64,000 bases of DNA. Origin: Chrysoperla carnea (taxonomy: Eukaryota; Arthropoda; Insecta; Neuroptera; Chrysopidae). Position 1 is the first letter of the stretch. Each line of letters starts with the position of its first letter. Shown here piece after piece: positions 1,546 through 41,093 of the stretch. Location of the stretch: positions 14,088,935 to 14,152,934 of the forward strand of contig NC_058338.1 of the NCBI RefSeq assembly GCF_905475395.1. Reading direction: 5' to 3'. The notes below the pieces were generated by a model. That model was not told the origin of the DNA, searched no databases, and saw only the letters and a list, made by a program, of their open reading frames with translations. The position numbers and the translations under genes were made by a program.

Positions 1546-2194
1546 TTATCACCCCAAAAAAATATATGATTTCTCTTTGCCTTTTTCTACTGCTTTACGC
1601 ATAGCATAAAAGTATCGTTACTTTACAGACACAATTGGTCGAATTTCGCATACAAGCAACTTAGTTACTTGTTTTAATAAAAAGGTGTAAGGGACTGTTA
1701 ATTTTTTACAGGATGTTAATAAAACAATGATTATAATATCGTTGTTTTTTCAATGGGTTTTATTTAAAATTTAAGATAATTTCTGATGATTAAAACTCAT
1801 TTAAGTGTATGTATTCAATTGTGGTTTCCCCACAATTGTTGTTGCTATTTAATATTTCAAGTGCGATAATTAATTATTTAAGATATTATACTTTTCGTAG
1901 GTAGTTCATAAGAATCTTTAAAATTTTTAATTTTATTACTAATTATAAATTATAATTTTTTGTGACTTTTAATCTTTTACGTTTATAAAAATTTTCTCCT
2001 TGAGTATTTTTACAATTAATAAGATTCGTTATCTAAATTAAATAAGTTTAAAATTTTGTTTATACATAATGTATATTGTCTCATTCAAATTTACAAAATG
2101 TTAAAAAATAATAAAAATTTTATCAGGTTGCAGGTGCGGATTTAGAAGAATTTTATCAGGTTGCAGGTCAATTTTCCCATTCACAATAAGAAGA
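1546..2194. other. Non-coding, no feature recognised
   Basis: AT-rich spacer. A short 'TTTATCAGGTTGCAGGT' direct repeat occurs near 2120 and 2152. Nothing else can be supported. Confidence 0.45.
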
Positions 2195-2660
2195 CCATTT
2201 TTAACTTCCCAATATAGGAAGTTATTGTAATGGGTTCGATTTTCGTAATCGAAATTTTCAACATATCTTTACGTTTCATAGTTAGGATAAGGCATTAACA
2301 CTAATTTAGAGAAGTATGTGTGTGTGTGTGTGTGTGTGTGTGTACGTTCGTCCTTAAACATTTTTTTCGTCGCCGGTATCGCGTGGACAAAAAGTGATAT
2401 CGACTTCGCTGAAGTGTCGATCGAAGCGTATTAACAGAAATCTGATCCAAAAAGAATTTCATAAAGTCGAGTCGGGCGAATTTTTTTAAAAAATTATTTC
2501 CTGATCGCTATTGCGCGAACAAAAAATGATGTCGATTTCGTTGAGGTGTCTCGAAGTATTAACGGCAATATGATCCGAAAAGAATTTCATAACATTCGAT
2601 CGAGTCATTTCGAATTAGGCGAGTTTTTTTAAAAATTCTTTCCTCATCGATATCGCGCGA
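2195..2660 (+). repeat. Dispersed repeat family C, copy 1, with TG microsatellite
   Basis: This begins with 'AACTTCC...AGGAAGT', followed by 'GTAATGGG(G/T)TCGATTTT'. A TG dinucleotide run at 2317-2342 and 'TATCGCGCGA' motifs follow. The same layout occurs at 41725-42175: AGGAAGTGAATGTAATGGGG, then a GT-rich run, then 'TATCTCGCGAACCAG'. Inside this copy the 'TATCGCG..GA/CAAAAA.TGAT.TCGA' block is repeated about every 130-150 bp. There is no ORF. Confidence 0.65.
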
Positions 2661-3369
2661 TTTACACACATTTTGGTATTAAATTTTTTATATTTTTTTT
2701 TCGATATTAATGGTGAATTATTCGACTTTGTGAACTAGAAATGAAAGTCACGAAATTGCAATATTTCTTTATGAGTAACCCGGAACGGGTATATTTTTAT
2801 TAAACTAATTAAAAAATGAATTGTTTAATAAAAGGTTATTTTAAATAATTTTTTTTAATTAATTATTAATTTGTGCGTGTGTTTTTAAATATTTGTAACT
2901 TATTATTATTTATTTGTAACAGTCATAAAAAAATATTTTGTGGTTTTTGAAGTTGTTTTTAATAAAAGTAATAAATTTAACATCGACTTTTTAAATGAAT
3001 TTAATTAAATAGTTAATTATTTAAAAAGACTTCTTGAATCTTTTAGAAGGTTATTATTACTTAGTACCCATATCAAGAGTTAAATATTTGAAATCAAATA
3101 AAATAGCAGTTAACCAGGAATCATGTAGAAAAAGATGATACTATATGTAAAGAAACAATTGACCCCATCAATTTTGCGCGGTACAGGGTAAGTACAGGTG
3201 AGAATTGAATATCACACCCTTTGTATCCCACCCTTGCACCAGAAAATATGTACGGCGTTGCGGGATACTTACTCTGCATAAGTATTCGAACCGAATTACA
3301 TAAATCACGTATGGCTTCGGAAATTGACGGGAGATCAAGAATTTTTTAACTTCCAGTACCAAAAACAAA
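2661..3369. other. Non-coding, no feature recognised
   Basis: AT-rich spacer with no recognisable exon, RNA or repeat. A 66-codon minus-strand open frame at 3168-3368 has no family resemblance and no conserved splice context. Confidence 0.45.
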
Positions 3370-3600
3370 AAAAGATATCAAGCTGAAATTTTTATATCGT
3401 GTTCGGGACATAAAAAGTGAGGCAAAGTTCGTAAAAGAGTAACATAGGTCAATTGGGTCTCGGTTCCGTAAAAAATGTTCCATATAAGAAAATTAAAAAC
3501 TTTTGTTTGAAACATTTTTTTGTTTTTGTAAACATCACTGTTTACTTACGAGGGCGCAAATAAGGTGCAAATTTTATAGTATGTATTATATGAGAATATC
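3370..3600 (+). repeat. Dispersed repeat family A, 5'-truncated copy
   Basis: Shares the landmarks of family A: 'GATATCAAGCTGAAATTT', 'AACATAGGTCAATTGGGTC', and 'AACATCACTGTTTAC' followed by 'GAGGGCGCAAAT'. It lacks the hairpin end seen in fuller copies. It faces the copy at 4100-4655, so the two form a loose inverted pair about 500 bp apart. Confidence 0.7.
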
Positions 3601-4099
3601 GAGGAATACGAGGACCCAAAATGTCTTATTTTGCCACTGAATCTGAATACATTTAAATAACACAAAATGCTGTATCTCTTTTTAAAAAAATTTAAAAAAT
3701 AGCATTCTTAAATAATTCAAATTCATATATTCATTTAGTTTAAATACCTATTTTAATAGGCTCGTAAAAAGTGATAAAACTAAACCGAAAAAAGTGATAA
3801 TGATCCAGAATATAATAGCATTTTGATGTTTTTTAATCGGCAATTTAAAAATTAAGTATTGGTATTTTGATAAACAAAAATGTGTTTCACTAATATTTTA
3901 AAATACATTTTGCAAATGCTTGATTACTAAGCTATTTTTCGCACTAAACAAAATGACGATAAGAGACAAAAAAAGGATTCTTTATTTTTAACTGCTTGAT
4001 TTCTTGTGTATAGTTAAATGGCGCCAACAATATATAGCTTTTAAAATACTTATCCTGTACATTTAATTAAGTATGTTCGAGTAGTCTACTGCAATTTTA

Positions 4100-4655
4100 T
4101 TTATATTCTAGCCACATGTGAAAACAAACAATTGACTGAAATAATTGTTGAAATACTATGTATAGACAGTGTTGCTTACTCTATCACATTGTTCATACAT
4201 ACATGTCAAACACATATAGGTAACGGATATACCCATATAATACAAAGTAAAGAATTTGCGCATAATTTGCGCTCTTACGGGTAAACAGTGATGTTTACGA
4301 AAAAATGTTTCAATTTTTTTATAAGAAACATTTTTATGTTCTATCTCTAACGGTTTACAAGATGAGTCCTACGGATCCAAGACCCAATTGACCTATGTTG
4401 CTCATTTACGAACTCGACCTTACTTTTTACGTCCTAAGCACGCTATAAAAATTTCAGCTAAATATCTCTTTTCCTTTTTAAGTTATCGTGCTTACGGACA
4501 GACAGACGCGCAGACAACTGGAAATGGACTAATTTGGTGATTCTATGAACACCTATACCAAAATTTTTTTCGTAGCATCAATATTTTTTAGCGTTACAAA
4601 CTTGGGACTAAACTTAATATACCATGTATATTTCATATATACATGGTATAAAAAG
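4100..4655 (-). repeat. Dispersed repeat family A, near-full copy with terminal hairpin
   Basis: This is the fullest copy of family A in the window. Read on the minus strand it starts with a perfect-looking hairpin built on 'TATACCATGTATA' (about 4618-4651). It then runs through 'TTTAGTCCCAAGTTTGTAACG', a TCTGTC-rich stretch, 'AACATAGGTCAATTGGGTC' and 'AACATCACTGTTTACCCGT', and ends near 'TTGTTTTCACATGTGG'. Other copies are at 3370, 27020, 57431 and 59391, with fragments near 44560, 58330 and 62770. The hairpin end and lack of coding sequence fit a non-autonomous mobile element, but I cannot name the superfamily. Confidence 0.75.
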
Positions 4656-9691: not shown

Positions 9692-12600
9692 TTAATCAGG
9701 TAAATGTGGAGCTTCTGTACTAAAATATGGTGCTGTATTACGATTTAATAACGTATGACAAACACCACAAACTTTTGATGGTCTCCGATTTGGACCACTT
9801 AATACCGTATGTGATAAACAATTTATACAAAATATTTGCCCACAATGACGACAATGTATCTGGAAAAAAACAAAACAAAATTAATAACGGAAGTTTACAT
9901 TTTTTTAAATTAAATGTACGTTAGTACGAGCGCCAAGGCAATTTTAGACACAGGGTTGAAATTATTTGTACCTTATTTTCAACTTTGATGATGAATTTTC
10001 TTATAACTTCATGAAGTTTTTTTGTTTGGGAAAAAAAACATTGAGAGTAATTTAAAAAGAGCATTTTATAGGCTTAAAAGTTTTCAACCATTTTCTATAT
10101 TTATAAATCCACATTATTACTTACTTTTTTACGTTGTCCTACAAAGGGATTACGGCATCCAGGACATTCTTCAATATCTTCTTCATATTGCCACCGAACT
10201 TGTGTATCAGATGCACGTATTTTTTCTAATTCAACTTGTAATGATTGTGATAATCGTACAAAATCCTTTTGCACTTGTTCACTATTATCTAGTTCTTGTT
10301 GTAATGCACTAACACGAGATTTTAATTCACTATTATGTTCTTCTAATATTTTCTGGATACAAACGAAAAATAATTAAATAAAAATATGGGAATATTAAAA
10401 TTAATTAGTAAAAAATTCTACTGAAAGCTCAGATTTACTGTCAAAACTACTTACTTTAATTCTTAAAGCTTCTACTAAATTTCTTTGTAATTCAAGTGTT
10501 GACGCCGAATCTTTAGTGATTCGATGTAATTCTTGTCTATGGAATTAAGAAAATGCAAAGTTAATGATAAAAAAATAATTAAAAATATAGCGACTTAATA
10601 ATAACTAGAGCTCGATAGTAAAAATTGGCGCAAGTAAGCTGTTCTAGATGATTGAAATATCAAACCATGTTTTAATTCCAATTCAATAATCTGAAAAGCC
10701 TGGTTAAATTAGTTGTTGATATTTACTCTATCAATACTAAACTGTGAGCTGAAATTGTAGAAAATCTGTAGAAAAATGTTTCGAACAAAGTTTATCTTTT
10801 GAAATTTAAATAATTTTTGGGCGTCACATAGCTTTATAGTCATCATTCTGCTTTCCTAGTTCACGAACTTGAAGTCAATTTAGGAGTGGACCATGCTGTC
10901 AAAATTTAATTTCCCCATCTCTTTTCGTTTGAGTTGTATTGTTAGGCCAGACAGGCAGACTGACAGAAGTGAGTTGATTAAGTGTTTTACGAGCATATTT
11001 CTTGACGTTATAAACTGAATTTAATATATCTCTAAACATATGTGAGAGGCCGTTATTGTTCTATGTAAAGTTCTCAATATAGTAAATTTAGATTACAAGC
11101 TTTGCTAGAAAATTCTAGTTTAGAAAAAATTAATTGCATTTAGCTCTACAGGTACTATATAAATTTTCTATTCTATTGACGAAGTGTAATATCGAATAAC
11201 GTGTTATCGGTCTATATTTAACAAAGTCTATGATTATATTAAGTTTAAAATGAACGAATAAAACATGACTGGTAAACTTTGGAAAATGTTTTACGAAAGT
11301 TTGAATTGAGAATGAATATATAATATATATTATTGAATACAAACTTTAAAGAATCATTTTCAGCAACCAATGTATTTTCCAATTCTTGTCGTGTTTGCTG
11401 CTCTATAATCATTTGATCACGCATTAATTGTATCTCACATCGTAATGATTCCTGTTGTTCTAATGCCACCTCTTTCGCAACACTTGCTGTTATTAAATCT
11501 TCATGGGATTTTAATAACACTAACTGAAGTTCATCAACATCACTTGGAAGATTAATCATTTCGCTTTGCAACTGTTGCGAATGAATACTATGCTTACCAA
11601 TCAAATTATCATTCTCTTGTTGAACTCTGTGAATAAACAAATGTAAAATAATTTTATTTAGGAAGAAAAATCTAAGAAAACGATCATTTGTGAATATGGT
11701 TTTTAGAATCTACACTACAATACCACACTTTGATAAGTGAGATTCGCCCAGCAAAGTGGGTAGGTTGAAAGAATTAGGTTATTAAAGTTGAACGAAATTG
11801 CACTTACTTATTTAAATGTTCACGCACTTGTTCTCGTTCTTTCGTTAATCTTGTTAATTGTTCTGTGATCTCCATTTGTGTTTGTTCAAATGTCTGTCGT
11901 AATTCTTGAAGATCTTGTTCAGCGCATAATGTTTTTTTATTTAATTCAGCAACCTTCGAAAAAAATTAAAATTCAAGTAATTGATACCAAGAAATAATAT
12001 TACGTATACCTTTTCTTTATGTTCTTCTTTTTTCTCGTTCCATTTTTCTTCCATATCTTTACGAAAACTAATTTCTTTTGTTAAATCCTCTTTTTGTCGT
12101 TCTAATATTTTCTCAGCAGCTACCAATTTTTTTCTAAGTTCATTCACATTTTGTTGTTCTTGTACAAGCTGAGTTTCATAATTGTTACACATATCACAGG
12201 TGGGTATAGGAGATGATGACTTTTTATCATCATCTTCATAATTTTGACTAGACGTTGATGTATTTAGTTGTGTTGTTAGAGTACCTGGTGGATATTTAAT
12301 AATATTGAAGAAAATTAGAAATATTGTATGGAATCCAACAGTAAGTTGGAATTATTTTGGAAGATTTTCATATTAAAGAGAAGATTTTGAAATTTATAAA
12401 ATATCTTGGGAGATTAAGCAAAAATTAAAATCGGTTCATCCATTTAACAGCTACGATGTCACAGATAGACACAAGTTTATAATATAAAATCACCCTTTTG
12501 CGTCGGGGAGTTTAAAAATAGTCGTACACGAATTATAAAAATTTTTTTACAAAATATTTTACTAAAAAATGAAATTCATATAAATTAGGGGTCATTCATA

Positions 12601-19322: not shown

Positions 19323-21262
19323 TACTATTTTGTTTTGGTTTTTTGTTTGGATGGTTGCTACGGAAACATATCTTTACATATATACAGGTATAATACATGA
19401 AGTAGCACTTCGCTATCTGTATTTTTCTATAGGCAATATTATTACAGTTTTGTCATGCATATAGAGTAGAGTTTAATAGTTTCACTTAGCAAATAATCGT
19501 ATCAGTTATGAGTTTAGTCAAAGAGTTTATATCTATAGGGGAACTTCAATGACTTCAACAATGCGTAGCAGAAATTTTGGGTTAATTACTCTTATACCAC
19601 CCGTCTCGTCCATTGTTTTATTTTTATTTAATACCGGTTTTCCACTAAACGGAAAAACAAACAAACAAAAACAATACAGAAACTCGTGTCACTACTCCAA
19701 ATTACATTTTGAGCTGTTTAAGAACAGCAGGAGTGTTTTGGCGTCAACGAACTTGAAGTCAGAGAGGTGTCGTCAAAGTGAGGCCAGCTCAAATAAGCAC
19801 ATCTCCTCAGGACAAGAGCTTGACAATAATGAAGGATTCACCTTTTTTCCTTACGTGTATATCATGGAAATAATTTAATTTTTGTATGAATTTTTTATAT
19901 GGTATTATTAAAATATTACTATTTCTGATGTAACGTGAGAAGAATGGTCAAAAATGAAATATAAGTTTGAATGTAATTCACCAAGATGACATAAGCAACT
20001 TTCCTGCTTCGTATAAAAGCTTAATCGAGATAAATTGAAATTAACTAGTTGCAGGTCACCAACCGTGTTGAAGAGGCCACAAACTACATGAATAAATACA
20101 GTAAGAGTGCTTCGGGCTAAGTAAGAATGCTCATACGAGTTTAAAGTGTATAGGAAAAATCACTAACACATTTTTAAGTTGTTTGAGTGCACATAGTGTA
20201 GAGATTAATAAGTTTAGAATTAGTGGAAAAACCAAAACATTGAACTCAATAATATTATAGACTGGGGGCTAGAAGAAGTTGAGTATGAAAATATGAGGAA
20301 ACGTATAGCTTTGCTTGTATTCTGGTATTTTCTTCGAATTCCTTAAAGATGGTAAAAACGTAAGAGCGGCGTTAAATTACAAAATAAGCGTGTTTATAAG
20401 TGCAACAGCTCTTTATGTTATTATCCTTTGTCTCGAATTTTTTGATTATTAAATATAAAAAAGAAGTCTATGCGTTTAATACCAATTGCAAGTGAACAAA
20501 TGAACTTAGCGAATTCAATTGAAAACTTTTTAGAGAATTTATTCAGAAACAATAACTTTAGTAGGTATTTATGGACCAAAATGTATCTGAGAGAACAGGT
20601 AAAATATTAAAACAAGTTTTAGTGTACGAAGTTACGGACAATAAAATATCATTGGTCGATTTTGTGCTATATACAGATTTTAAGGACGCTGACCTGACCT
20701 TCCATAAAGAAAAGTTCAATCATTGCTATCGGTTCTCATATTTTACATACCAAACTCTTTCTAGCGCCTGCTTTATTTAGCAAATAATTCAATATCATAT
20801 TCATAGATAAATAAATAGTATTTATAGATCATATCATTTCCTTTCAAAGTAAAATAAAAGTTTTTTAAATTTAATATTTTCCTTATAGCAAAATGTTTAT
20901 TGGGTGTCTTTTTAGTATAGACCTAATGAAAATAAATAGCATTGACAAAAAAATTAATTGGAGCGCTTCTTCACAACTCATCACTACCTTTTACTTAGGC
21001 ACCCTTTTTCGATATTATGGTCTTGAAGGCTATCCAACCACCTGTATAAATTTGACATTTTCTATTGGGATGTCTTTAATTGGTGTGAGTTTTTGATTCA
21101 AAAAAATTCTAAAAAGACGCATGCAACTTGCAATGCACCTTGTCTCAAATCTTATTGGAACTTCTGGAAAAAATCAATTTTTCAATTAATCCTTATACCT
21201 ATGAACTTACATCCATGTCACACTCAATAGCTTAAATGGGATAAAAGCCTTCAATAAAAAAG
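19323..21262. other. Intergenic between IFT22 and esterase cluster
   Basis: The two genes diverge from this spacer. A 109-codon frame (19549-19878) and a 69-codon frame (20571-20780) match no family I know. The stretch 20470-20780 could be decayed coding sequence: an open frame with 'SEQMNLANSIENFLENLF' precedes a GT-like site. I cannot assign it to anything. Confidence 0.4.
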
Positions 21263-21270
21263 TATATAAA
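21263..21270 (+). promoter_or_regulatory. Probable TATA box of the double esterase gene
   Basis: TATATAAA lies about 66-73 bp upstream of the proposed start codon. An initiator-like 'ATTTAGTTTT' follows at about 21293-21302, roughly 30 bp downstream of the TATA. Spacing and sequence fit a core promoter. Transcription start is inferred, not shown. Confidence 0.5.
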
Positions 21271-21335: not shown

Positions 21336-24300
21336 ATGTTAAAGGCAAGTAAATGCTAATAAACCTTGCAAAGTATACTCAACGCCAAAAAAATTTATCG
21401 CAATAAGAAAAATTAAGATTCGTCGTATAAATTATAAATTATTAGTTATTTTAATAAAGAGTGGTCAAAGTGAGTTATTCAGAATTTTTAAGGTTGTAAT
21501 ATTATTGTATTTTGAACAAAGTAGTTATTAGAATATCACTCTTTAAGTAGAAACACGATTTACATTTTTTTATTTCAAAATAATACGCGAATAAGTATTT
21601 TCAACTATATCAGAATATTATTGAAATTACATATTATAATATTTTAAAATTATGTATAAATCTACGTCAGTTGATCAACAGAAATGTAAGTTTTTAAAGT
21701 TTTTAACTATAATTTCCCCTGAGATTAGTTTTTATACCGATTAATAACATATAAAAATTCAAATATATCGTTATCATCAATAAATCATTATCATCAAGAA
21801 TATACAAGATGCTGTTGGTTGGTTCATATTTTTTGGCTTTGAGTGTACTTCCATATTTTTTGTTTGAAATCGTTTATCAAACAGGTTTCAGGTAATAAAA
21901 ATCAAGTGATATCCCAATGTCGTTAAACCTCAACCAAAACAAAAATTTAATATTTATGTATATTTTTTTTAGATTTTATTATTGTTAATTGTTGTGACAA
22001 CAATCGAATGTTATCGTGGACACCATCTTCCAACTGGTTATAAGCATCATAATCAGTTAAATTCTGGACCAAAAATTGTTCGATTACCGTTGGGAAAAAT
22101 TTTAGGTTCAACAGATTTTAAAACACGACTTGGTAAACAAATTTATGCATTTCGTGGAATCCGATTTGCAGAGCCGCCAACTGGTAGTCGTAGATTTCAG
22201 GTGGAGTATTTTTTAATAAATCCAAAAAATCTAGAGTACGATTCCAGAGGACCTATACATTTTGGTATAAGAAAGCTTTAATTTATGTAAAAAAATATTT
22301 TTAAAGGCACCTGAACCTGTGAAATCATGGGAAGAAGAATTCATTCTAGATGCCACAGAAGAAGGGCCAGCTTGCCCTCAACCCGTACATATAACACGAG
22401 AAGAATTTGGATGGAGTACATCCGAGGATTGTTTACGCCTGAATGTTTACACTACAATGGTAATTTTGAGATGTCTGTTTCTCTAGTTAATGATGAATTT
22501 CAAAAAGTATATTGATTAATAAAATTATTTTTCAGTTACCAAATGGCGAATCAAAAAATAACACATTACGCCCGGTTGTAATTTATTTCCATGCTGGAGA
22601 ATTTTATGGCAGTTCAGGAATTTCAAGTTATCATGGCCCACAATATTTATTAGATAAAGATATCGTTTTAGTCACTGTAAATTATCGTCTTGGAACATTG
22701 GGTATATTAAAATTTCCAAATTTTCTTACTTGAGAATTACTTTAAATAATAAATTATTTTCATAAGGTTTCATCAATACTGGTGATGAAAACGCACCTGG
22801 AAATTTAGGCTTGAAAGATCAAGTTATTGCTATGAGGTGGGTACAGCAAAATATTTTAAGTTTTGGAGGTAATCCAGAAGAAGTAACTATTATGGGCTAT
22901 AGTTCTGGCTCATGTAGTGTGGCGTTGCATTTAGTATCTCCAATGTCTAAAGGTAAATCCAAATTTCGATGACGACCATAAAATGTTTAACCGTCTAATT
23001 GATTATTTTTTAAGGTTTATTTCATCGAGCGATTGCTATGAGTGGCTCACCAACATCAGCCATTAAATATACAAATCAATTAGATTTAGCTAAGAAACAA
23101 GCGGAAATTTTAAATTGCCCAAGTAATACAAGCCAAGAAATTATAGATTGTTTAAGAACAAAAGATGCTGAAGATATTTCAAAAACTTTCTTTAGTTTTC
23201 GAGAGGTAGGTTCAGATCCATTGTTGATCTGGAGACCAGTTATTGAGCCAGATCATCCTGGTGAAAAATTCTTAACTGAAGATCCAGCTAAATTATTTCA
23301 TAATGGTAATTTTACGAAAGTACCTTTTATGATTGGTGTTAGTGAAAATGAATTTGCGGGAAATGCATATAGTAAGTAGTCATAAAAACTGAGAATCTGT
23401 TTTTAATTTGCTTAAGTTTTTGTTTTTAATAGATGTTGTAGCTGATGAAAATTTACGAAATGTTTGGAATAGTAATTTCGCATACGTAGCTCCAATTGCA
23501 TTTGGTTACGAACGAAACACATCAAAATCTTTGAACATTAGTAATAAATTAAGAGATTTTTACATAGGTGAAAAAGAAATCAATTTGGATTCCGTTGAAG
23601 GTCTTGGTAAACTTTATGCTGATAGTGTTGGATGGAGTATTAGTAGATTGGCTTATATGGTGGCTCAATCGAATGATTATCCAGTTTATTATTACAAATT
23701 TGCATACTCGGGACGCTTCAGTCATTTTTATTCGCCTTTCACAAACAAAACTATTGGTAACAATAAGACTTTCCAAAAATTTTCTTTTATTAATAAATTT
23801 TCACTTTTAGGTGCATCCCATCTTGATGAATTAATTTACTTGTTCTACATAAGAGCACATTATTTGTCATTTCCACTCTTTAAACCAAGTGATCCTGAAA
23901 CGAAAATGGTTGAGAAAATGACAACTTTGTGGTCAAATTTTATTAAAACAGGGTTTGTATCGATAATCCAGAACTACCAAAGTCATGGGTTAATAACTTA
24001 ATGTTTATATTTTTAGAAATCCAACACCTGAGGTACAAGAAGTTACAAATAATGTTACTTGGATACCTTTTACTACGAAAGAAGAAAATTACTTGAATAT
24101 TGATTCTAATTTAACAATGGAAAAAAATTTATTTGCAGATCGATATTCGGTTTGGGAACATTCGTTTCCATTTGTAGTAAAAAAAATACATAAAGTCACA
24201 ATTGTAAAAACAGTTTACATTGTACGCGTACACACACCCTTGGGAAAAATTCTAGGTTCAACAAATTTTGAAACACGCCTTGGTAAAAAAATTTATGCAT

Positions 24301-26846
24301 TTCGTGGTATAAGATACGCTGAATCGCCGACTGGCAGTCGCAGATTTCAGGTAAGTTTTGGTATGACCTAAACAATGCACAAGAAAAAATTCATTTTTTT
24401 TACAGCCACCTGAACCCGTGAAACCGTGGGGTGAAGAAACTTTAAATGCAACTGAAGATGGACCTGCATGCCCTCAACCAATACGTATAAACCCAGAGGA
24501 ATTTGGATGGAGCACATCCGAAGATTGTTTACGTTTAAATGTTTACACAACGGTGAGTTAACGAAAAAGTAAGATTTGATTAAATATAATTGAAAATCCA
24601 AAATTTCTTAGCTACTAAATCGCGGAAATGAAAAGAAACTACACCCTGTAGTAATATTTTTCCATGCTGGAGGATTTTATGGTGTTTCAGGAATTTCAAA
24701 TTATCATGGCCCTCAGTATTTATTGGATAAAGATGTGGTTTTAGTCACTGTAAATTATCGTCTAGGAACATTGGGTAAATTGAAAAAGAAAAACATTTTA
24801 TATCCTCTGTAGCTTCACGTTTATTTATATCTGTAGGTTTTATCAGTACTGGAGATGAAAATGCTCCCGGAAATTTAGGTTTGAAGGACCAAGTTCAAGC
24901 TATGAGATGGGTTCAACAAAACATTAAAAGTTTTGGTGGGAATCCAGATGAAGTAACTATCATGGGCTACAGTGCTGGATCCTACAGTGTGGCCCTACAT
25001 TTACTATCTCCAATGTCTAAGGGTATAATTTAATTTAATTATTACGTTTCCGATCATTCAACGATCATTTTTCCAGGATTGTTCCATCGTGGTATCGCCA
25101 TGAGTGGTTCACCAACTGCTACCTTCCCATTTACGGACCAATTAGATGTAGCCAGAAAACAAGCACAACTTTTAAATTGTCCCAGTAATACCAGTAAAGA
25201 AATTATTGATTGTTTAAGAACGAAAGATGCTGAAGAAATTTCTACCACATTCTTTGACTTTCAAGAAGTAGGTTCAGATCCAACACTAATCTGGCGACCA
25301 GTTATTGAACCAGATCATCCTGGTGAAAAATTCTTAACGGATGATCCAAACAAATTGTTTTACGAAGGAAAATTTACAAAAGTACCTTTTATGATTGGTG
25401 TTAATGAAATGGAATTTGCAGGAGGTGCTTATGGTAAGAAATCATAAAAGACCACGCACAAATTAGATGCAATCTGCATTTCGGTTAAACTTTTTCAAAT
25501 TTTGGGAAATGATAGTTTAAGTCATTATAAATAAAAGTTCCCATGGTTATAAGTCATGAAAATGACAGGATTTCAAGTTATCGCTAAATTAAAGTTGGAA
25601 AATGTATTCATTTGTATAAAAAATTATATGTAGCTGAAAATATTGATCTTAACGCTGGAATTCATATTATTAATCCACTGAACATTTATCACTAGTTCTT
25701 CTTCGAATTTCGTAACATTTCATTTCAAAAAAACAATAATTAAAAAACAACACTCTTGCATTAAAAAACACACGTATGCATGTAGTTATACATATCTGTA
25801 AATGTATTTGCCTATACACACATAGGCATATATTATACAAATGAGTACATTTTCCAATTTTAATTTAGCTATAACATAGAATCCTGTCATTTTCATAACT
25901 AGTGACCATGGGAACTTTTCTTTAGAATGACTTAAACTTTCATTTGCCAAAATTTGAAAAAGTTTGACCGAAATTCAGATTACTTAGATTGGAAAATTTT
26001 GCATATCTAATTTAAAATTATTCTCTACCTTAGATGTTGTAGCTAATGAAACTTTACGAGAAATTTGGAACAATAATTTTGAATATGTAGCTCCAATTGC
26101 TTTTGGTTATGAACGAAATACATCAAAATCATTGGTCATTAGTAAATCATTGAGAAATTTTTACCTAGGTAGTCGAGAAATAGATTTTGAATCCATTGAT
26201 GATTTTAGTAAACTTTATGCTGATGGTATTGGATGGAGTGTAAATCGATTGGCTTGTTTACTTGCAAAATCAAATGATTTTCCAGTTTATTTCTATAAAT
26301 TTGCATATAAGGGTCGATTCAGTCATTTTTATTCACCATTTACAAATGAAACTATTGGTAAAAAATGAATAATATTTTGTAAAATTTACTGGTATTTTTA
26401 AAAATATTTCCTCTTCTAGGTGCGTCTCATCATGATGAATTAATGTACTTGTTCTACATAAGTGTACATTATTTATCTTTCCCATTTTTCGAACCTACTG
26501 ATCCAGAAATTGAAATGGTAGAGAAAATGACAACTTTGTGGTCAAATTTTATTAAATCGGGGTAAATATTAATATTAAGTCATATTGCAATTCGATAAAT
26601 TATTATAATTTTATGTTTAATTACAGTAATCCAACACCCGAGAAGGAAGAAGTTACAAATAATGTAATTTGGAGACCGTTTACTTTGAATGAAGAGACTT
26701 ATATGAATATTGATTCAAATTTAACAATGGAAAAAGATTTATTTGATGATCGATATGCGCTTTGGGAAAATTTGTTTCCATTTACTATACGACAAGTTCT
26801 AGTAACCCAAGTGAATAGACATAAAGTTGTGCACAATTTTGAATAG
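21336..26846 (+). CDS. Secreted carboxylesterase with two fused esterase domains
   Basis: Type-B carboxylesterase (alpha/beta hydrolase) carrying two full domains in one frame. Exons: 21336-21344, 21973-22200, 22307-22459, 22536-22701, 22767-22952, 23015-23371, 23433-23756, 23811-23952, 24017-24350, 24406-24552, 24612-24774, 24837-25022, 25077-25433, 26034-26357, 26420-26561, 26627-26846. They sum to 3438 nt, 1145 aa. A hydrophobic signal peptide '[16 protein letters not shown]' leads. Domain 1 triad: S231 (GYSSG), E360 (GVSENEF), H478 (GASHLDEL). Domain 2 triad: S782 (GYSAG), E911, H1029. The linker is about residues 577-592. Domain 1 has 'HAGEF' where domain 2 and the neighbour have 'HAGGF', so an oxyanion-hole glycine is lost. 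Exon 2 has no in-frame Met and a stop just upstream, so a 5' exon is required; the proposed one uses a GC donor. Substrate unknown. A merged pair of transcripts is unlikely, given the shared exon. Confidence 0.85.
24017..24350 (+). other. Fusion exon joining the two esterase domains
   Basis: A single exon that begins with the last-exon sequence of domain 1 ('NPTPE..EVTNNV', '[13 protein letters not shown]'). It runs through a linker at about 24180-24227 and continues as the second exon of a standard esterase ('TPLGKILGS', '[13 protein letters not shown]'), ending at RRFQ|GTAAGT. In the neighbouring single-domain gene these two parts lie in separate exons at opposite ends of the gene. The frame is open throughout. 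Confidence 0.88.
25469..25983. mobile_element. Fold-back element in double-esterase intron 13
   Basis: Two long inverted arms (about 25470-25625 and 25830-25982, roughly 150 bp each) share 'AAAGTTCCCATGGT', 'ATGAAAATGACAGGAT' and 'AAATTTTGG.AAATGA'. Terminal sequences are G(C/T)AATCTG(C/A)ATTTCGG. The 6-bp direct repeat TTAGAT flanks the element at 25463-25468 and 25984-25989. The host intron is 600 bp, while the equivalent introns of domain 1 and of the neighbouring gene are 61 and 65 bp. The element is therefore a later insertion. No ORF. Confidence 0.8.
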
Positions 26847-26875: not shown

Positions 26876-26881
26876 AATAAA
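26876..26881 (+). terminator. Polyadenylation signal AATAAA of the double esterase gene
   Basis: AATAAA 30 bp past the stop codon, followed by A/T-rich then T/G-rich sequence. It is the first canonical hexamer after the stop; a second AATAAA-like run follows within 15 bp. Confidence 0.6.
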
Positions 26882-27019
26882 AATTTTAAAATAAAAATAA
26901 TATTATTGTTTATTCTCTACCCATCCAGAATTTTTTTTGAACCACTAAAAGTAAATAAGATGTGTTAGTCGAAAAGACGGTATAAGGTCGACTTCAACCA
27001 TCTGATAACTAGATGAGAA
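26882..27019. other. Esterase intergenic spacer
   Basis: Short non-coding spacer after the double esterase gene and before a family A repeat. Confidence 0.4.
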
Positions 27020-28916: not shown

Positions 28917-31877
28917 ATGTTAAAGGCAAGCAAAACAAACTAATTTATTGTTGATTATGACCAAAAATATTTAATAACTACTGTAGTTTTTGATTATGTT
29001 TTTAAACCATTTTTACAGATTTTGATATTGCTAATTGTTGTAACAACAATTACATGTTACCATGGTCATCATCATGACATGGATCATGGACATTCACACC
29101 ATCCTCAAGCCAATGGTGATCCAAATGTCGTGCAAACACCATCAGGAAAAATTGCAGGCTCTACAAATTTTAAAACACGTCTTGGAAAACAAATTTATGC
29201 ATTTCGTGGGATACGATACGCAGAATCACCGACTGGCAATCGTAGATTTCAGGTAACAAGCTTGGAATTTCCTACCAAAAAAAAAATTTACCTTCTAAAA
29301 TTAATAGTAAAATTATTTTTATAGCCACCTGAACCTGTAAAATCATGGGGTGAAGAAGTATTAAATGCCACTGAAGAAGGCCCAGCATGTCCTCAACCTA
29401 TTCGTATACCACCAGAGGAATTCGGTTGGAGGACATCGGAGGATTGTTTGCGTTTGAATGTTTATACAACAGAGGTAATAAAAATAATTGAAATTCACGA
29501 AATTTAATACCTGACAAAATTACTTTCTTAATTTTTTAATTGTTATTAAAAATGATTATCTTTTTATTGTGAGAGCTCAGGATAGCAATGTATTGCAAAA
29601 CATATTTGCACCTTTTTGCACCCTGCAAAATGCTCAGACAGATATACAGAGAGAAAACTAAGTGGAATAAATTATAGATTTTCGGAAAAAAAACATTGGA
29701 ATATATGAGTATTATAAGAAACTTTTATTACATTAATCTGGATTAAAATTTTTTAGCTGCCAAATCAGAAATCTAAAAGTAATAAACTACGGCCTGTAGT
29801 AATATTTTTCCATGCTGGAGGATTTTATGGCGTCTCAGGAATTTCAAATATGCATGGTCCGCAATATCTATTAGATCAAGATGTAGTTTTGGTCACTGTA
29901 AATTATCGTCTAGCAACATTGGGTAAGTGGAAAAGAAAACAAATTATTACTGAAATTGGTAAATAACACATACCATTACTTTCTTTAAAAGGTTTTATTA
30001 GTACCGGAGATGAGAATGCTCCTGGAAATTTAGGCTTGAAAGATCAAGTTGTGGCTATGAGATGGGTAAAGAAAAATATTCGAGGATTTGGTGGCAATCC
30101 AGATGAAGTAACTATTATGGGCTACAGTGCCGGATCAATGAGCGTGGCTTTACATTTAGTCTCACCAATGTCTAAAGGTAAAATTGCATGAAGTATCAAT
30201 GAATTAGTTGTCAACAGAATTGCTTTCATTGTAGTGTCATTGAAGCAAGCGTAGCCAAGTCATAGGGCTGTAATAAAACTTACACTATATTTTTTGCTAT
30301 TTTTTTGCTGGCTTGAGACTGAAGTCAGCGTATCTACCGCTATATTTCTACATCCGTAATTTGGGTCTTTATTACTCAGTATAATGATAGAAGCCAAATA
30401 ATTAATTTATTGGCAAAAACTAGCAAATAATTAGCAAAAAAATATGGTGTAATTTTTATTATGGCCCTATGACTAGGCTACGCTAGCTTCATAGACACTT
30501 CGTTGTACATGATCGATCACATATTAATTAAACAAATTTATAGTATAGTATTAATTAAACACATTTTGAAGGATTATTCCATCGAGGCATATCTATGAGT
30601 GCTGCACCAACGAGTACATACACATTTACAAACCAACTTGACTTAGCGAAAAAACAAGCAGAGCTATTAAATTGTCCAAGTGATACTAGCAAACAAATTA
30701 TCGATTGTTTAAAAACGAAAGATGCTGAAGAAATTTCAACTACATTCTTCAGTTTTCAAGAGATAGGTCAAGATCCTACATTAATTTGGAGTCCCGTTAT
30801 TGAACCAGATCATTCAGGTGAAAAATTCTTAACCGAAGATCCAGCTAAATTATTCAATGAAGGTAGATTTATGAAAGTTCCATTTATGGCTGGTGTTTGT
30901 GAACATGAATTTGCAGGCGGTGCATATCGTAAGTACTCTAAAATTGATAAAAAATTTTGGGTTATTAATTTTTGTATGAAATTTTTTTCTTAGGTGTTGT
31001 AGCAAATGAAACACTACGGAATATTTGGAATAATAATTTTGACTACGCAGCCCCAATTGCATTTGTTTATGAACGAAATACGACAAAATCTTTAGCAATA
31101 AGTAAAGCGTTAAAAGATTTTTACATAGGCAATCAAGAAATTAGATTGGAAACAATTGATGGTTTGGCTAAACTTTATGCTGACGGAGTGGTCGGATGGG
31201 GTGTCCATCGGTTGGCGAATTTAGTAGCTAAATCTAACGACTTTCCAGTTTATTACTATAAATTTGCCTACAAAGGCCGTTACAGCCATTTTTATTCACC
31301 ATTCACAAATAAAACAATTGGTAAAAAAATTAATATGCTCAAAAAGTTTTCTCGATTTTAATAGGGATTTTTCGTTCATAGGCGCATCGCATCATGATGA
31401 ATTAATGTACTTATTCTACATAAGTGTAAATTATTTAAATTTCCCATTCTTTGAACCAAGTGATCCCGAAACAGCAATGGTTGAGAAAATGACAACATTA
31501 TGGTCAAATTTTATTAAAACAGGGTAAAAATTATCAACGCGAATTGAAAGGTGTCGATAAACAGAATAGTGGGCACTGGGCTAGGCTGGTGGTGTGTTTA
31601 CTACATATCTCCTTTAACTGGCGCTTAAAAGGAATACTTTACGTTTTGTTTATCTAGCTTTTGAAATTCTTTTCTCAAAAATTTAGCTAATATTTTTTCC
31701 TTTTTTTGCAGAAATCCGACTCCCGAAAAACAAAGTATAACAAATAATGTCATATGGGAACCCCTTACTGCGAAACAAAAGAATTATATGAATATAGATT
31801 CAACTCTGTCGATGAGGAAGAATTTATTCGCTGATCGCTATGCTTTATGGGAAAGTTTATTCCCAATTTCCAAATAA
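28917..31877 (+). CDS. Secreted carboxylesterase, single domain
   Basis: Type-B carboxylesterase, the intact paralogue of both domains of the upstream gene. Exons: 28917-28925, 29019-29252, 29325-29474, 29757-29922, 29992-30177, 30572-30928, 30994-31320, 31382-31523, 31712-31877. They sum to 1737 nt, 578 aa. Signal peptide '[16 protein letters not shown]' is followed by a histidine-rich stretch '[14 protein letters not shown]'. Oxyanion motif 'HAGGF'; triad S232 (GYSAGSM), E361 (GVCEHEF), H480 (GASHHDEL); also '[10 protein letters not shown]' and '[16 protein letters not shown]'. Exon phases match the upstream gene one for one. Exon 7 is one codon longer ('DGVVGWG'). The first exon encodes only Met-Leu-Lys and ends with a GC donor (AAG|GCAAGC). 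It hydrolyses esters in the secretory route or outside the cell; the physiological substrate (hormone, pheromone, xenobiotic) cannot be read from the sequence. Confidence 0.92.
30233..30499. mobile_element. MITE with ~80-bp inverted repeats in single-esterase intron 5
   Basis: The left end 'AGTGTCATTGAAGCAAGCGT' is mirrored at the right end as 'AGTGTCTATGAAGCTAGCGT' on the other strand. Both continue through 'AGTCATAGGG' and 'TTTTTTGCTA'. The element is 267 bp with no ORF. It fills most of a 394-bp intron whose counterparts in the fused gene are 62 and 54 bp. No clear target duplication was found. Confidence 0.75.
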
Positions 31878-33508: not shown

Positions 33509-36500
33509 TTATTTAGCTTCTAATAAATAAGTTTTTCGTTGATTTTTTAATAATTGATCTAAATGTTCACATTTTTCTTCCAATAGAGTGTATTCTTGTT
33601 TCATTTTGGCAATTGTTCCGTCTTTCTTTGATATCACTGACTTTACCCTATAAAATAGAATTTCAAAAATATTTAATTTAAATAACAAATTTTATGGGAT
33701 ATAAAACTTTTTCTTATTTGTCTTCTGAAATTTAGAAGAAATAATTTAATATCCCCAGAAAACTGACGTGTTCTTAAAAAAATGGAATTTACCTTTCATA
33801 AACTTCTTCCATTTCTCGTTCACGCTCGGAACGTAAATTAAATAACTGTGTCTGCAATGATTTCATTTCCGATTCTAGCTCTTTGCGAATCACTTCTTGT
33901 ACGTGACCTCGTTCTTTTAATAGTTGAGAATTTTCCTTAAAATCAAAAATGTAGATTGTATTATAATCTCTTGTGATAGGATAGTTTTTACAAATAACTT
34001 AAGTATCAAAATTTTGTCTACGGTTCCTGTCCAAAATACCTTCTATGCTATTCATCCTTCAGACTTTCGCCATGCAATTCTGTAAATATTATACTTTTCA
34101 ATTTTCATATGTTCCAATTTTCGATGCATATATTTCGAGATAATAACAAAAACGAAAAACTGTAGGTAGAAAAACGACCCCCGTGACTCCCCCCACCCCT
34201 TGAATCCGCGCCTGAAGCTGGGACGAATATACTAACATGTAAAAAAATATTTTTAAAAAAATAGCACATACCTCCTCTAATTCATGTAATTTATTTTCCA
34301 TTTTCTTAATAACTCCACGCAAATAAATTAAATCATTTTCATTGTTTACTAATTTATTTTTCGCATCTAAATAACGCATTTGAGCTTGTTTTTCTGATTC
34401 TTCTAAATATTTAATTTCATTTAAATATTTCTCATTTAAACGTTTAATACGATTCTCAGCTGTGGTTTCAATTTGCTTTTTCAGTTCGATTGACTCATTT
34501 TCTAAACGTTCAATTACAAGCTCAATTTCATGATCACGTTCTTTTTTACACATGGCCATAATTTCTTTCTCTTTGGTTAATTTCCATTGTTCTTGTTCTT
34601 TACGGATATTAGCTTTCCATGTTTCTTGTTCAATATCATAATTTTCTTTTAATGTTTTTAATTCGTTCTTATGTTTTCGTATCATTGTATCAATATGATC
34701 CTCGTAGCCTGATTTAATCGCTTCAAAAGCACGTTCTTTCTCTTTGATGGCAGTTTCGAGACGGGTATCAAATTCACGTGATTTACTGGCGTATTCTTCT
34801 TGTAAATGTTGCTTTAAACGTTCTTGTTCGGATACTAGTCGACGCCGTTCTTCTTGATAATTTTTTTCTTCATTTTCAATTGTTTTTTGGACTTTTTGAT
34901 TAAGTGCTTCACGCTCTCTTTGCAATACATCGTCGTATTCTGATTTCAATTGCTCACGCAATGCTTCACATTGTTGATGAGTACGACGTGATGCACGTAG
35001 CTCCAATTCTTCAATTTCTTGTTTATGTAATGTACGAATGTCAGAGATTTCTTGTTCATGTCGTACTTTCATGTTGTGTAATTCTGGTTCCAATCCTTTT
35101 ACAGTCATTTCCTTAAAAATTAAAAATGCGATAAATCAAAAATGCAGTTCATACAAAATTTAAAGAGTTTTATGTGCGATCATGGGCGTCGTAAAGGGGG
35201 AGGGCCAGGAAAAAGTAAAATCCGACAAACACTCCAAGAATACTAATTTATTCATGCCTGTCTCTGTAATGCCCCAGTAACTTTGACAATTATTTGAGGT
35301 CACATTGAATGACCTGTTATGAGAGTTTTTCTTCCTACTTGTACGCGTAGTAATGATTTTAATAATAAAAGGCTTACTTTAATTTTTTCAGTTTTTCCAA
35401 GCAACCATTTTTCTCGACGTAATTTCTCAGCAATTGCTTGGCGTTCTTTTGATGCTTGCAGCTCTACATTAAAACGGTGTTCAGCGGCTTTCATTGCCGA
35501 AGCATGACGTTCGTCTTGTTGCTTTAACTGTTTGATTAAATTTTCACATTGTTCAGTCAATGATTTTTTTTCGTTTATTAACTATAAAAAGAAGAATAGT
35601 AAAATTAACTTCCAAGAAAATTTCCAAGACTGCCAGATTTCTTCCTGAGACATAATCCCTATCAACTTCCCCTAAGTTCCTCGAATTTTCGATTTTTCAA
35701 ATGATTTTTGCAAGCAAATCTGAGTTGATACGTTTTTTATTATGTGAAGAAGTTAAAGAATCTTTTGAATTTTTTTTGATGCAGATCTTTTATTAATATC
35801 GTATTTTAGAGCGATACAAAATGTAAACTCATACCTGATCAATAAACGTTTGATGACGCTTAATAGCTGTTTCGTATTCGCTCTTTTGTGATTTTAATTT
35901 TTTGCAATTTTCACTTTCCCAACTTTTTAACATTTTGTTTGTACTTTGGCGTTGTTCATTTAAAGTTTCTTGCAACAAGTGCACAGATGAAGTTTTCTCT
36001 TCAAGTTCCAAATATAATCCAATTAACTTTTGTGCTAAGTCTACTCGATTCATTTGTAATAAAGCTTCCATGCTGTAATGTAAATGTTCATTATTAGTGG
36101 TTTTGAGACTTCCTAGGTAAGAATTTCCAACTTGACGATGAAATTGAGGTTTGGGCGAATATTGGTTATACCAAGTCTTGGTGATTTGCCAGCACTTGTC
36201 CAAACCTTTTCCAAGGTTAATTAAGCAATAATTGATTTACCAACTCTTGCTCAAGGTTGGTCCAGCATTGTTTTTGGTCCAGTAAGTTTTTTATTTACAC
36301 TAAGACTTCTCATGGTGGCCTCCAAAATGATTATTTGGTGGGATTTCACGATAAAGATATATACATTTCATTTTAAAAGCTTTATTATAAAATAAACTTA
36401 CTTTGGTAAAGCTCCATTTATCAATTTTTCTGTACTCTTTTGAACACTATATGCTCGAATTTTGGCAGCATTCAAAATAACACTACAACTCTTATCAACT

Positions 36501-39500
36501 TCATCCAGAAATGTAAGAATTTCGCTGTAAACATGGTAAAAGAAAAATAAATTTTTTTTAAATTAGGCATAATTGCAATTTTTTACTTATAATTTTTGCT
36601 TGGTGTTATTCTCAAATTATTTGATAGTTCTTTGATCGGCATATCCATTGTCATATTTCGTTGATCATTATTTTGGTCTTGTTTTTCTGATATCCATAAT
36701 TTACTACCGCACTCACGTGGCGTGTTTAAGTTTGAATTATTATTATGGCTATTATTATTATTATCATTTTCCAAAATTTGTAATATTGTTGATATATCGT
36801 TATATGTACTTGGCAATGTGGATAACATACTTTGGACACTCTATGAAACGAAAAAAATACGAATTTTATAGTCCAAAAAGAAATGCTACTTTTGTATTTT
36901 ATTTCAATTCTATATCATAAATAATATTGTACTTCGCCAAGAAAACTATTTTTTTTAAAAATCGGTTGCATTTGATGACTAGTCGAATAGTTTTTGAGAT
37001 ACGGACTAAAATGGATCAAAATATTGCGATATCTCAGAAACTCTGCATCCAATCATTAAATTAAATTAATTTTTATACTTTTTGGATCAAAATTACCACC
37101 CCCCCTCCAAGTTTCATCAAATTCCAAAAAAAAAATTTTTTTTGCGATTTTCTCGATTTAATCAAAGGGTACGCCTTTTTTTGAAAGGGTAAAAATCGAG
37201 AAATTTTTGTTGTCTCCAATTTCGATAAAACTCAGTATAAAAGGTAATTTTTACCTTCAAAATTACCTTATAAACTGAGTTTTGGTAAAATTGGCTACAA
37301 AAAATTTTTCTCGATTTTTTCGATTTTTTTTGAAGGGGTGCCCCTTAAAAAAATTGCAAAAAATCGAAAAATTTTTGCTGTCTCCAATTTGTATAAAACT
37401 CAGTACCTAAGGTAATTTTGACTCAAAAAGTTCAAAAATCGTGTTTATTTTATGATTGAATGCGTAGTACCAGAAATATCAACCAAAATCGCAATCGAAC
37501 AGCGATTTTCTCCGAAATTTCGCATCCAATCATAATATAAATGCGATTTTTGTGTTTTTTGGGTCAAAATTACCTTATAAACTGAGTTTTGGTAAAATTG
37601 GCTACAAAAAATTTTTCTCGATTTTTTCGATTTTTTTTGAAGGGGTACCCCTTAAAAAAATTGTAAAAAATCGAAAAATTTTTGCTGTTTCCAATTTGGA
37701 TAAAACTCAGTATCTAAGGTAATTTTGACTCAAAAAGTTCAAAAATCGTGTTTATTTTATGATTGAATGCGTAGTACCAGAAATATCAACCAAAATCGCA
37801 ATCGAACAGCGATTTTCTCCGAAATTTCGCATCCAATCATAATATAAATGCGATTTTTGTGTTTTTTGGGTCAAAATTACCTTATAAACTGAGTTTTGTC
37901 AAAATTGGCTACAAAAAATTTTTCTCGATTTTTTCGATTTTTTTTGAAGGGGTACCCCTTAAAAAAATTGCAAAAAATCGAAAAATTTTTTTAACCTCCA
38001 ATTTCGATAAAACTCAGTATATAAGGTAATTTTGACCCAAAAAGTACAAAAATCGGGTACATTTGTTGACTGGCCGAATAGTTTTTGAGATACGGACTAA
38101 AATCGATACAAATATTGCGATATCTTAGAAACTCTGCATCCAATCATCAAATTAACCTGAAGGCAGAGTGATGAGTGGTAAAAGAAACAAATATTTTATA
38201 AAGATTTTTATACTATCGAGTAGAGTTTTGTTTTAAATCAGAAGTAAAATCTGCCAATAGACAATTTCACTCAAAAAAACGGCAAATATTCGATGAACGG
38301 TATAAAAACTGGAGTCTACGATAATGACAGACTAATTTTATGAGTTAATATTCTAAATAATGTCTTACCTCAGCTTTCTTTTTTTTAGTAGAAAAATCTC
38401 TTTCAGGCATCTCAGACAATTCTGATGTCCTTTCCATTAAATCAGATACTTTGTGTTCATTATTTTTCGTCTCAAATACACCATTATCAGCATTATCATT
38501 CATTTTACTATCACCAGTATCATCCAATTTTGATGATGAATTCAATAAAAATTCTTTGTCCTTTTGCAAACCTTTATCATACATATCTAGTGAAAATTGT
38601 AAATTTTCTTTACTTGTTTTCTTTGTAATATTATCAATTTGCATTTCATCTCCTTTCTTTTGATTGTTCATCTCAATAAAATCTTTTTTAATTAAATCAT
38701 TAATTTCATCGATAAATATTTCTGATTGATTATTAAATTTCATTGCTTGATTATCTAAATCATCAGTTTCATTGGGATCACAATGTGAACTGCTATCTGG
38801 ATTTATATCTAAATTTGCAGACGCAACAACTTCATTTTCGATAATTTCTGGTAATTTTTTACTAATTTCGTAATATTCGGTAAAGGCTTTTTGATGCGAA
38901 CGTAATTTTTTAAATAAATAATCCGTTTCTTGTTCGAATATTTCAATTTCTTTAATTTTAGTATCGTTACCACTTAATTGAAAGAACATATCAATTTTTG
39001 ATTCAATTGAGGATGTACCGACATTATCACACATCTCTTTTTGTTTAGAAAAATCAATTTTCTCGCTTGATGTTTCCTCTTCAATGGTAGATGTGATAAA
39101 ATTATCCCATTCTTTAGGTGTAGATTTCGAATGATATTTTTCTTGGTATTCCTTTGACATCGAAACACCAGGTGGTGGAGAAGAATCGGCCTTTTTGGGA
39201 GATAACGATCGATGTTTATTTTGTGGTAAAGGTGGTTTATGTTTAATACCTGGTTCTAGATTCATTGAACTATTTCTTTGCGCCAAATTTTGTATTTTTG
39301 TACCGAAACTCATTTCAGATTGTATACATTCGTCTTCTTCTTCATTTGTTTCGGTGGTGTCATCGGAATTTTCAATAACTTCTTCGTCAATCGTTGAATC
39401 TGATAAACTTGTACGTGATGTATCTTGAGAAGTGACAGTAACATGCCATGATCGCATTACTGGTTCTTTCATTAATTTATTTAACAGTTTTGTTGAATTT

Positions 39501-41093
39501 AATTTTGAGTGTGGGCCACATTCAAAAAAGTCTAGGGCACCTGCAAAAAAAGAAATTGGTGTTGCGGGAAAATGAATATTTCCATTTCGGTCAAAATGGG
39601 TATGTTTTAAAATAGGCAAAGCAATAAAGCACTAAAAATGGGATGCGTTTTATGGATTCGATTTAAGAGAGAGTCTACAATCTTGGTCAACAAAAGTTAC
39701 AAAAATGGCCCCTGAGGTACCTAGTGCCTAGGACGGGTACTATACATCTCGTCTCTTGGATTTTTACGAGAACAAGTAACCTATTTCGTCGAAACTCGTT
39801 ACTTTAGGATTTTCGGCGCTGCTGAACATGAATATCACTACAAAAATGGCCCCCGAGGTATCTGATGCCCAGAGCATATGAAAAGGGAGACGTCCAGGTC
39901 TTAAAAAAGGATTTTAACTTAATAAAGCTTATTTTTACAACGTGCTCATGTTTTTCACTGTGATCAAGCTCTGCTAAATTACGCACATCGCATAACATAG
40001 GAAGTGACACTACCTACCTGCATTTTTTTGTTTACCCGATGAAATATTATCAGCTGATTGTGGTCTTAACGTATTATTAATTTTAACAAATCGATTTTCA
40101 TCTTTTGTTTTATACGCATGCAATTCTGGAACAGCACTCATTGGGCGTTCTTTTAAAAATGTACAATTTGATGATGGTAAAAATAGAGCCCGACTTGTTG
40201 ACAAGGGCGTTAAATCACGACTTGTGGATACTCTATTTGCTAAATTAATCTAAAATTAAAAATTATTTATAAATCCATATTTATCTTTTTAATATTCCAA
40301 ACGTTTCCCCGTTATTTTATTTTACTGGATAATTTATTGAATAGATTTCAGGGAGAATTAAACGAAAAAATTTTACACTTGTCAATTTGATATTATTTGT
40401 GATTAATCAACAAATTTAAAAAATTTATTTTAATGGTTGCTAAGGCATCTTCAATTTGATATTTTAGAGGATATAAGTTTTTGAATCAATCGGACTTTTT
40501 AAAATAGTGCATTTCGTAAATAGCCACATTTGTTGTAATTAGCCCGACGACGGCGAAGGTTATGTGTTTTATCTTTATGTATGCATGTATGGATGTATGT
40601 ATGGTTATATGTCCCCTCATAATATCGTTGGAAAATTGCCCAAACTGAACTTTTACCCTTTTTTTAATCTGAGAAGTCCTCCGAGGGTCGCCAAGGTTTT
40701 AGTTTTTGAACTTTATTTTATTTGTAAGTATAGAGTAATGATCCGTCTCCTTTAGAGATCCTATGTACTAGCAGTTCTCCGCTCGATCGAAATTGGACAG
40801 GCGTGACTCTTATCAAATATATATTATCGTATAATTTAAATATATGTCGCGTATATAAAAACTTAAACATCCAAAAAAACAAAAAAATAATTAACGCACT
40901 TTTGAATCGAAGCAAATTATTAGTTTCGTCCTATTTAGTATCAAACTTTGGATAAACAAATTTTCACTGTTGAAAAAGATAAAAAGAAAAATATATTTAC
41001 CTGTGAACCATTCAGTGATAAATTCAATGAAATTTCCTCTTTGTAATTTTTCTTTGATTTCGATTTATTTTCAACATTATTACTTGGCGCCAT
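33509..41093 (-). CDS. CEP131: Centrosomal protein of 131 kDa (AZI1 / dilatory)
   Basis: Centriolar-satellite and transition-zone coiled-coil protein needed for cilium formation (dilatory in Drosophila). Ten exons: 41093-41001, 40249-40018, 39540-38369, 36840-36587, 36524-36402, 36072-35835, 35581-35378, 35111-34272, 33935-33793, 33647-33509. Joined they give 3438 nt, 1145 aa, with all phases agreeing. The N-terminal half is acidic and low-complexity, with Asn runs such as 'NDNNNNSHNNNSN'. The C-terminal half is continuous charged coiled coil. The family block 'TVKGLEPELHNMKVRHEQE' opens exon 8. The protein ends 'EKCEHLDQLLKNQRKT', which parallels the vertebrate 'ADHLEELLEQHRR' tail. Two open frames run past true donor sites (at 34272 and 38369) and should not be taken as coding. 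Introns 1 and 3 are long; intron 3 holds a tandem repeat array. Confidence 0.93.
36936..38160. repeat. ~307-bp tandem repeat array (family D) in CEP131 intron 3
   Basis: The phrase 'ACCTTATAAACTGAGTTTTG' recurs at about 37265, 37572 and 37879, a period of about 307 bp. Each unit holds a near-palindromic 'AAAAATTTTTCTCGATTTTT / AAAATCGAAAAATTTTT' stem around 'GGGGTACCCC'. Between stems lie blocks such as 'TCCGAAATTTCGCATCCAAT'. Outer units are diverged and carry 'GAGATACGGACTAAAAT' and 'GAAACTCTGCATCCAATCAT'. The same family is inverted at 63000-63740. No ORF. Confidence 0.8.

Follow-up and report, generated by a model that had tools for sequence, protein, structure and literature searches.

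Two carboxylesterase domains encoded in one open reading frame of the lacewing Chrysoperla carnea

A gene in a 64,000-nucleotide stretch of the Chrysoperla carnea genome (C2:14088935-14152934, contig NC_058338.1; the whole stretch is called the window) encodes two whole carboxylesterase domains in one continuous genomic open reading frame (ORF). The fused gene occupies positions 21336-26846 of the window (C2:14110270-14115780) on the plus strand. Its 16 exons all join in phase and give a coding sequence of 3438 nt and a protein of 1145 aa without an internal stop. The protein begins with a signal-like N-terminus, followed by the first carboxylesterase domain (D1), a 21-residue linker, the second domain (D2), and the stop codon at 26844-26846. 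This confirms the sequence-only reading of this DNA, in which sixteen exons with agreeing phases were proposed to encode two esterase domains. We estimate a probability of about 0.6 that the gene gives one secreted protein in which D2 is active and D1 is impaired or altered. The single mRNA, the secretion, and the enzymatic activity of the product are inferred from the sequence.

The domain content was examined with profile and sequence searches. The Pfam family COesterase (PF00135) matched the fused protein in two stretches (whole-protein E 6.6e-283), and the best stretch covered residues 37-568, corresponding to D1, and positions 3-515 of the 515 in the profile. When D2 was searched alone, residues 23-547 of its 571 aligned to a solved carboxylesterase with an E of 2.8e-79. 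The NCBIfam search returned weak matches only, below the cut-off. The best sequence match in the PDB was 7mp4, 'Carboxylesterase-24', which we take to be a moth antennal esterase. D2 next matched human CES1, and D1 next matched 2fj0. Among the 60 listed of the 154 matched PDB sequences, the chains were 523-870 residues long, and none had two full esterase domains.

The gene model is as follows. Exon 1 (21336-21344) encodes only MLK. Exon 2 (21973-22200) completes the signal-like N-terminus ([13 protein letters not shown]) and begins D1; the whole N-terminus ([16 protein letters not shown]) was judged as a signal peptide by eye only. Exons 3-8 of D1 are located at 22307-22459, 22536-22701, 22767-22952, 23015-23371, 23433-23756, and 23811-23952. 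They are followed by exon 9 (24017-24350), by exons 10-15 of D2 (24406-24552, 24612-24774, 24837-25022, 25077-25433, 26034-26357, and 26420-26561), and by exon 16 (26627-26846) with the D2 C-terminus, a 20-residue tail, and the stop. GT-AG borders were found in 14 of the 15 introns. Intron 1 (21345-21972, 628 bases) has to be GC-AG (AAG|GCAAGT), a detail absent from the earlier description. The GC donor is supported by G3, a complete single-domain paralogue at 28917-31877 on the plus strand (9 exons, 578 aa) that served as the comparison gene. The first exon of G3 (28917-28925) is likewise ATG-TTA-AAG, and a GC donor (AAG|GCAAGC) follows it. An alternative first exon starting from the ATG at 21809 was checked by hand and rejected; the GT donors near 21885 and 21892 are out of phase with exon 2.

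Exon 9 is the fusion exon, in which the D1 C-terminus, the linker, and the D2 start lie in one open frame. D1 extends to Phe574 (24171-24173), the linker comprises residues 575-595 (24174-24236), and D2 starts from Pro596 (24237). The earlier claim that this exon spans both domains without a stop was borne out: the linker is open, and D2 has neither a first exon nor a signal peptide of its own. Only 20% (0.203) of simulated 63-nt stretches of this composition are open in a given frame, and with the one-in-three chance of the right frame about 7% of random joins would give an open, in-frame linker. The linker alone is therefore weak evidence. More weight is carried by the missing first exon and signal peptide of D2, by a junction free of AATAAA and TATA-like motifs, and by a comparison of esterase N-termini. 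A search of the genome (559.49 Mb, 337 contigs) located the 115-base junction stretch at a single place. Esterase N-termini were then located by a regular expression in the window and 21 fetched loci (29 rows, 1 spurious row dropped). By eye, from the printed residues, only one of the 28 inspected N-termini, that of D2, runs on from the C-terminus of another esterase. The automatic C-terminal flag was negative in every row, even for D2, because the signature sought sits in the preceding exon. The inspected loci are part of 117 COesterase match rows in the genome, and further fused genes are possible elsewhere.

The active sites were compared with human CES1, in which the triad is Ser221-His467-Glu354 and the oxyanion hole is formed by Gly142-Gly143-Ala222 (PMC12821581). 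D2 was aligned directly to CES1 with a hand-counted constant offset of 18 (Ser221, Glu354, His467, and Gly142-Gly143), and D1 was mapped through D2. The triad is kept in both domains, as Ser231, Glu360, and His478 in D1 (D1-D2 alignment) and as Ser782, Glu911, and His1029 in D2 (CES1 alignment). The oxyanion hole of D2 is intact, with Gly702 and Gly703 in the Ala701-Gly702-Gly703 motif (24666-24674) and Ala783 next to the nucleophile Ser782 (24971-24976). The oxyanion hole of D1 is changed at two of three positions, reading Gly151, Glu152, and Ser232. Glu152, with the codon GAA at 22599-22601, stands at the CES1 Gly143 position, where D2 and G3 have GGA; Ser232, next to the nucleophile Ser231 (22901-22906), stands at the Ala222 position. 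Aligned directly, Glu152 of D1 lies opposite a Gly in 2fj0 and 9d1j and opposite an Ala in 7mp4.

These data indicate that D1 and D2 are probably not equivalent, since D1 carries Glu152 and Ser232 and D2 is normal. The sequence-only reading had regarded the protein as a covalent dimer with a built-in pair of working esterases. Two fully active, equivalent sites would agree with the Ser, Glu, and His retained in both domains and with purifying selection on both. However, the G143E variant of CES1 is described as losing function in remdesivir hydrolysis (PMC12298093), and D1 has the same Glu at this position in addition to a Ser at the Ala222 position. After removal of 4 spurious rows from the 35 obtained for the window and 20 loci, Gly or Ala stood at the oxyanion position in 23 of 31 esterase copies, another residue in 6, and Glu in 2, namely D1 and the paralogue L020. 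L020 also lacks the nucleophile, and we consider two equivalent active sites rather unlikely. The fused ORF and its local duplication origin are supported, and the view of a built-in pair of working esterases probably simplifies too far.

L020 (positions 1563-4299 of its locus, C2:14301062-14303798) is a single-domain paralogue without a catalytic serine, with a frame that is otherwise open. A gap of five residues at the nucleophile (MG-----SS) removes this serine, Glu replaces the oxyanion glycine, and the product is probably a non-catalytic esterase-like protein. An impaired D1 is plausible because the same clade holds at least one such probable non-enzyme. D1 is best described as a family member by descent and a putative working esterase at most; its changes are suggestive of a pseudoenzyme.

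Selection on the two domains was estimated from a two-against-one parsimony assignment of changes among D1, D2, and G3. The branch ratio of nonsynonymous to synonymous divergence (dN/dS) was 0.265 for D1 (bootstrap 0.167-0.396), 0.166 for D2 (0.093-0.252), and 0.168 for G3 (0.103-0.249). Both domains are under purifying selection. D2 is as constrained as the free-standing G3 despite the lost first exon, though part of this divergence may predate the fusion. The constraint on D2, which has no first exon of its own, fits expression through the D1 signal peptide.

Several observations weigh against a secreted protein with an active D2 and an impaired D1. The oxyanion position is variable in this genome, with neither Gly nor Ala in 8 of the 31 copies, the two with Glu included. 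Relaxed selection on D1 is not clear-cut, since its dN/dS range shares values with the ranges of D2 and G3. Intron 8 (23953-24016) has the donor AGG|GTTTGT; of the 23 donors in the two gene models (the fused gene and G3), all others carry a purine at +3. If intron 8 were retained, translation would end early, at the stop 23999-24001. The intron 8 donor and this stop also agree with an ORF that is continuous in the genome and not in the mRNA: intron 8 would often be retained, D1 truncated, and D2 either started internally or not made.

The sequence around the junction argues against such a split. No AATAAA and no TATA-like motif was found by the motif scan in 23900-24420, and the single ATTAAA in that interval, at 23942, lies within exon 8. 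A TATA-like element and candidate promoter is located at 21263-21269 on the plus strand, 73 bases before the start codon, with a further TATA-like match at 21045. Two AATAAA signals (26876 and 26890, within 26876-26895, plus strand) lie 30 and 44 bases past the stop codon. Introns 2-9 are only 54-106 bases long, and a hidden promoter and first exon for D2 therefore have little room. Intron 1, at 628 bases, could be a site of regulatory DNA. D2 made alone would have no signal peptide, and its constraint is not relaxed. The four cysteines of each domain (Cys 102/121 and 282/293 in D1; 655/674 and 833/844 in D2) all match the places of those in G3. Such cysteines form disulfide pairs in the type-B esterase family, and a cytosolic D2 made alone is unlikely because each domain keeps all four. 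Taken with these observations, the split mRNA is considered unlikely. A scan for bacterial promoters and terminators (one terminator-like site at 24153-24170; shuffle mean 0.5) was disregarded, as such signals do not apply in an insect.

The closest relatives of D1 and D2 are G3 in the window and two loci farther downstream, L019 at about 172 kb (minus strand) and L020 at about 185 kb. Protein identity is 76% between D1 and D2, 76% between D1 and G3, and 78% between D2 and G3. The corresponding synonymous divergence values (dS, NG86) are 0.64, 0.80, and 0.82, with dN/dS ratios of 0.23, 0.20, and 0.18. The intron positions of the fused gene are common to G3. G3, L019, and L020 end 0-5 residues past an FP[IL] motif, where D1 continues into the linker. 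All three have a short separate first exon, which D2 lacks; those of L019 and L020, recognised by visual inspection of the DNA upstream, are followed by a phase-0 intron with a GT donor. The earlier proposal, a tandem duplication in which the first gene lost its stop and the second its 5' end, agrees with these observations. An origin by local duplication of a lacewing esterase gene is well supported by the sequence comparison.

In the protein tree, D1, D2, and G3 group together (96/99), and the order among the three is unsettled. The outgroups were L021, L022, L024, and L025; the automatic models of L021-L028 are rough, and some chain the exons of neighbouring copies. The nucleotide and codon trees favour D1 with D2 weakly (Shimodaira-Hasegawa-like approximate likelihood ratio test 53.8 and bootstrap 61; codon bootstrap 74), and Glu at the oxyanion site may be shared with L020 or may have arisen twice. 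The last segment of the D1-D2 alignment has low synonymous divergence (proportion of synonymous differences 0.10), which might reflect gene conversion in a stretch too short for a claim. An inferred 4-base difference from the D2 tail, toward the end of the aligned linker, is suggestive of a change that carried the frame past the ancestral stop; the aligned stretch is about 30 bases, and this is not claimed.

Tandem paralogues are in general prone to mis-assembly, and the fused gene could be two genes collapsed with the loss of a stop, intergenic DNA, and a first exon. However, about 24% of the residues differ between D1 and D2 and dS is 0.64, and the copies are too far diverged to be easily confused by HiFi reads. 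The assembly inChrCarn1.1 was made from PacBio HiFi reads at 40-fold coverage with a contig N50 of 67.8 Mb (PMC10116181). An assembly error is highly improbable.

The favoured account of the fused gene begins with a tandem duplication in the lacewing lineage that would have left two genes for secreted type-B esterases in head-to-tail order. The 3' end of the first gene, beyond its stop, may then have been joined to the second gene's exon 2 by a deletion or an unequal crossover. From the anatomy of the locus, the promoter, exon 1, and signal peptide of the second gene would have been removed in this event. One promoter and one signal peptide would then produce a single secreted protein of about 130 kDa, as estimated from its length. 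D2, with Ser-Glu-His and a normal oxyanion hole, would be the half that works as an esterase. Ordinary esters are probably poor substrates for D1, and D1 may serve as a covalent partner, a binding domain, or a site of altered specificity.

The fused gene resembles known type-B carboxylesterases (PF00135) in domain, triad, cysteine pattern, and signal-like N-terminus, but differs by having two full domains in one chain and Glu in the D1 oxyanion hole. D1 shares with human CES1 G143E the Gly-to-Glu change at the aligned oxyanion-hole position; in D1, however, the change lies in a duplicated domain, seen in one assembly, and is accompanied by Ser at the Ala222 position. The G137D change of Lucilia alpha-esterase-7, associated with organophosphate resistance, also places an acidic residue at an oxyanion glycine that probably corresponds to Glu152. 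D1 differs in having Glu instead of Asp and in being fused, and any organophosphate activity of D1 is putative. COesterase-COesterase architectures exist in protein databases. A phrase search of the open-licence literature found no two-domain or fused type-B carboxylesterases, which is weak evidence since the wording varies. The word esterase is also absent from the main text of PMC11319779. We regard the fused gene as a moderately interesting new variant within a known family.

Other features of the locus and the chromosome were also observed. Intron 13, within D2, contains a miniature inverted-repeat element (25471-25981) with 154-nt arms that are 88% complementary. At least 39 other genomic places match at least about 430 of the 526 queried bases at 80-88% identity; this is a lower bound, as 40 of 377 candidates were scored. 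The GC-AG first introns of the fused gene (21345-21346) and G3 (28926-28927) share the AAG|GCAAG context. On the minus strand, long coding-like and partly coiled-coil-like open frames at 11245-12351 and 34098-39631 flank the esterase pair. Some of them may resemble rabaptin and a centrosomal protein. Two more large esterase tandem arrays are located on C2, at 4.63-4.68 Mb (sampled in one 7-kb piece, L039) and at 21.06-21.16 Mb (ten pieces, L029-L038).

C. carnea is a predator, and both its venom (PMC12758981) and its tolerance of insecticides (PMC8939785) are of applied interest. The venom account lists carboxylesterase type B paralogues, the same family from the same species as the fused gene, in the core and shared venom (PMC12758981). 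In the portion available, it leaves the venom esterase genes unspecified, gives no link to the fused locus, and mentions double-domain serine proteases with no double-domain esterase. D1 could also have been re-purposed: with its acidic oxyanion residue it would hydrolyse phospho-esters or carbamates slowly, or act as a suicide-binding site, covalently tethered to a fast D2. This is quite unlikely, and if true the secreted protein would be a detoxification or venom enzyme with two sites, one capturing and one hydrolysing. If the gene is transcribed as modelled, it would be a clean natural case of a duplicated secreted enzyme turned into a covalent two-domain protein, in which one half has a textbook active site and the other half has the substitution found in a loss-of-function allele of human CES1. 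Whether fused esterase pairs split into catalytic and non-catalytic halves could then be tested directly.

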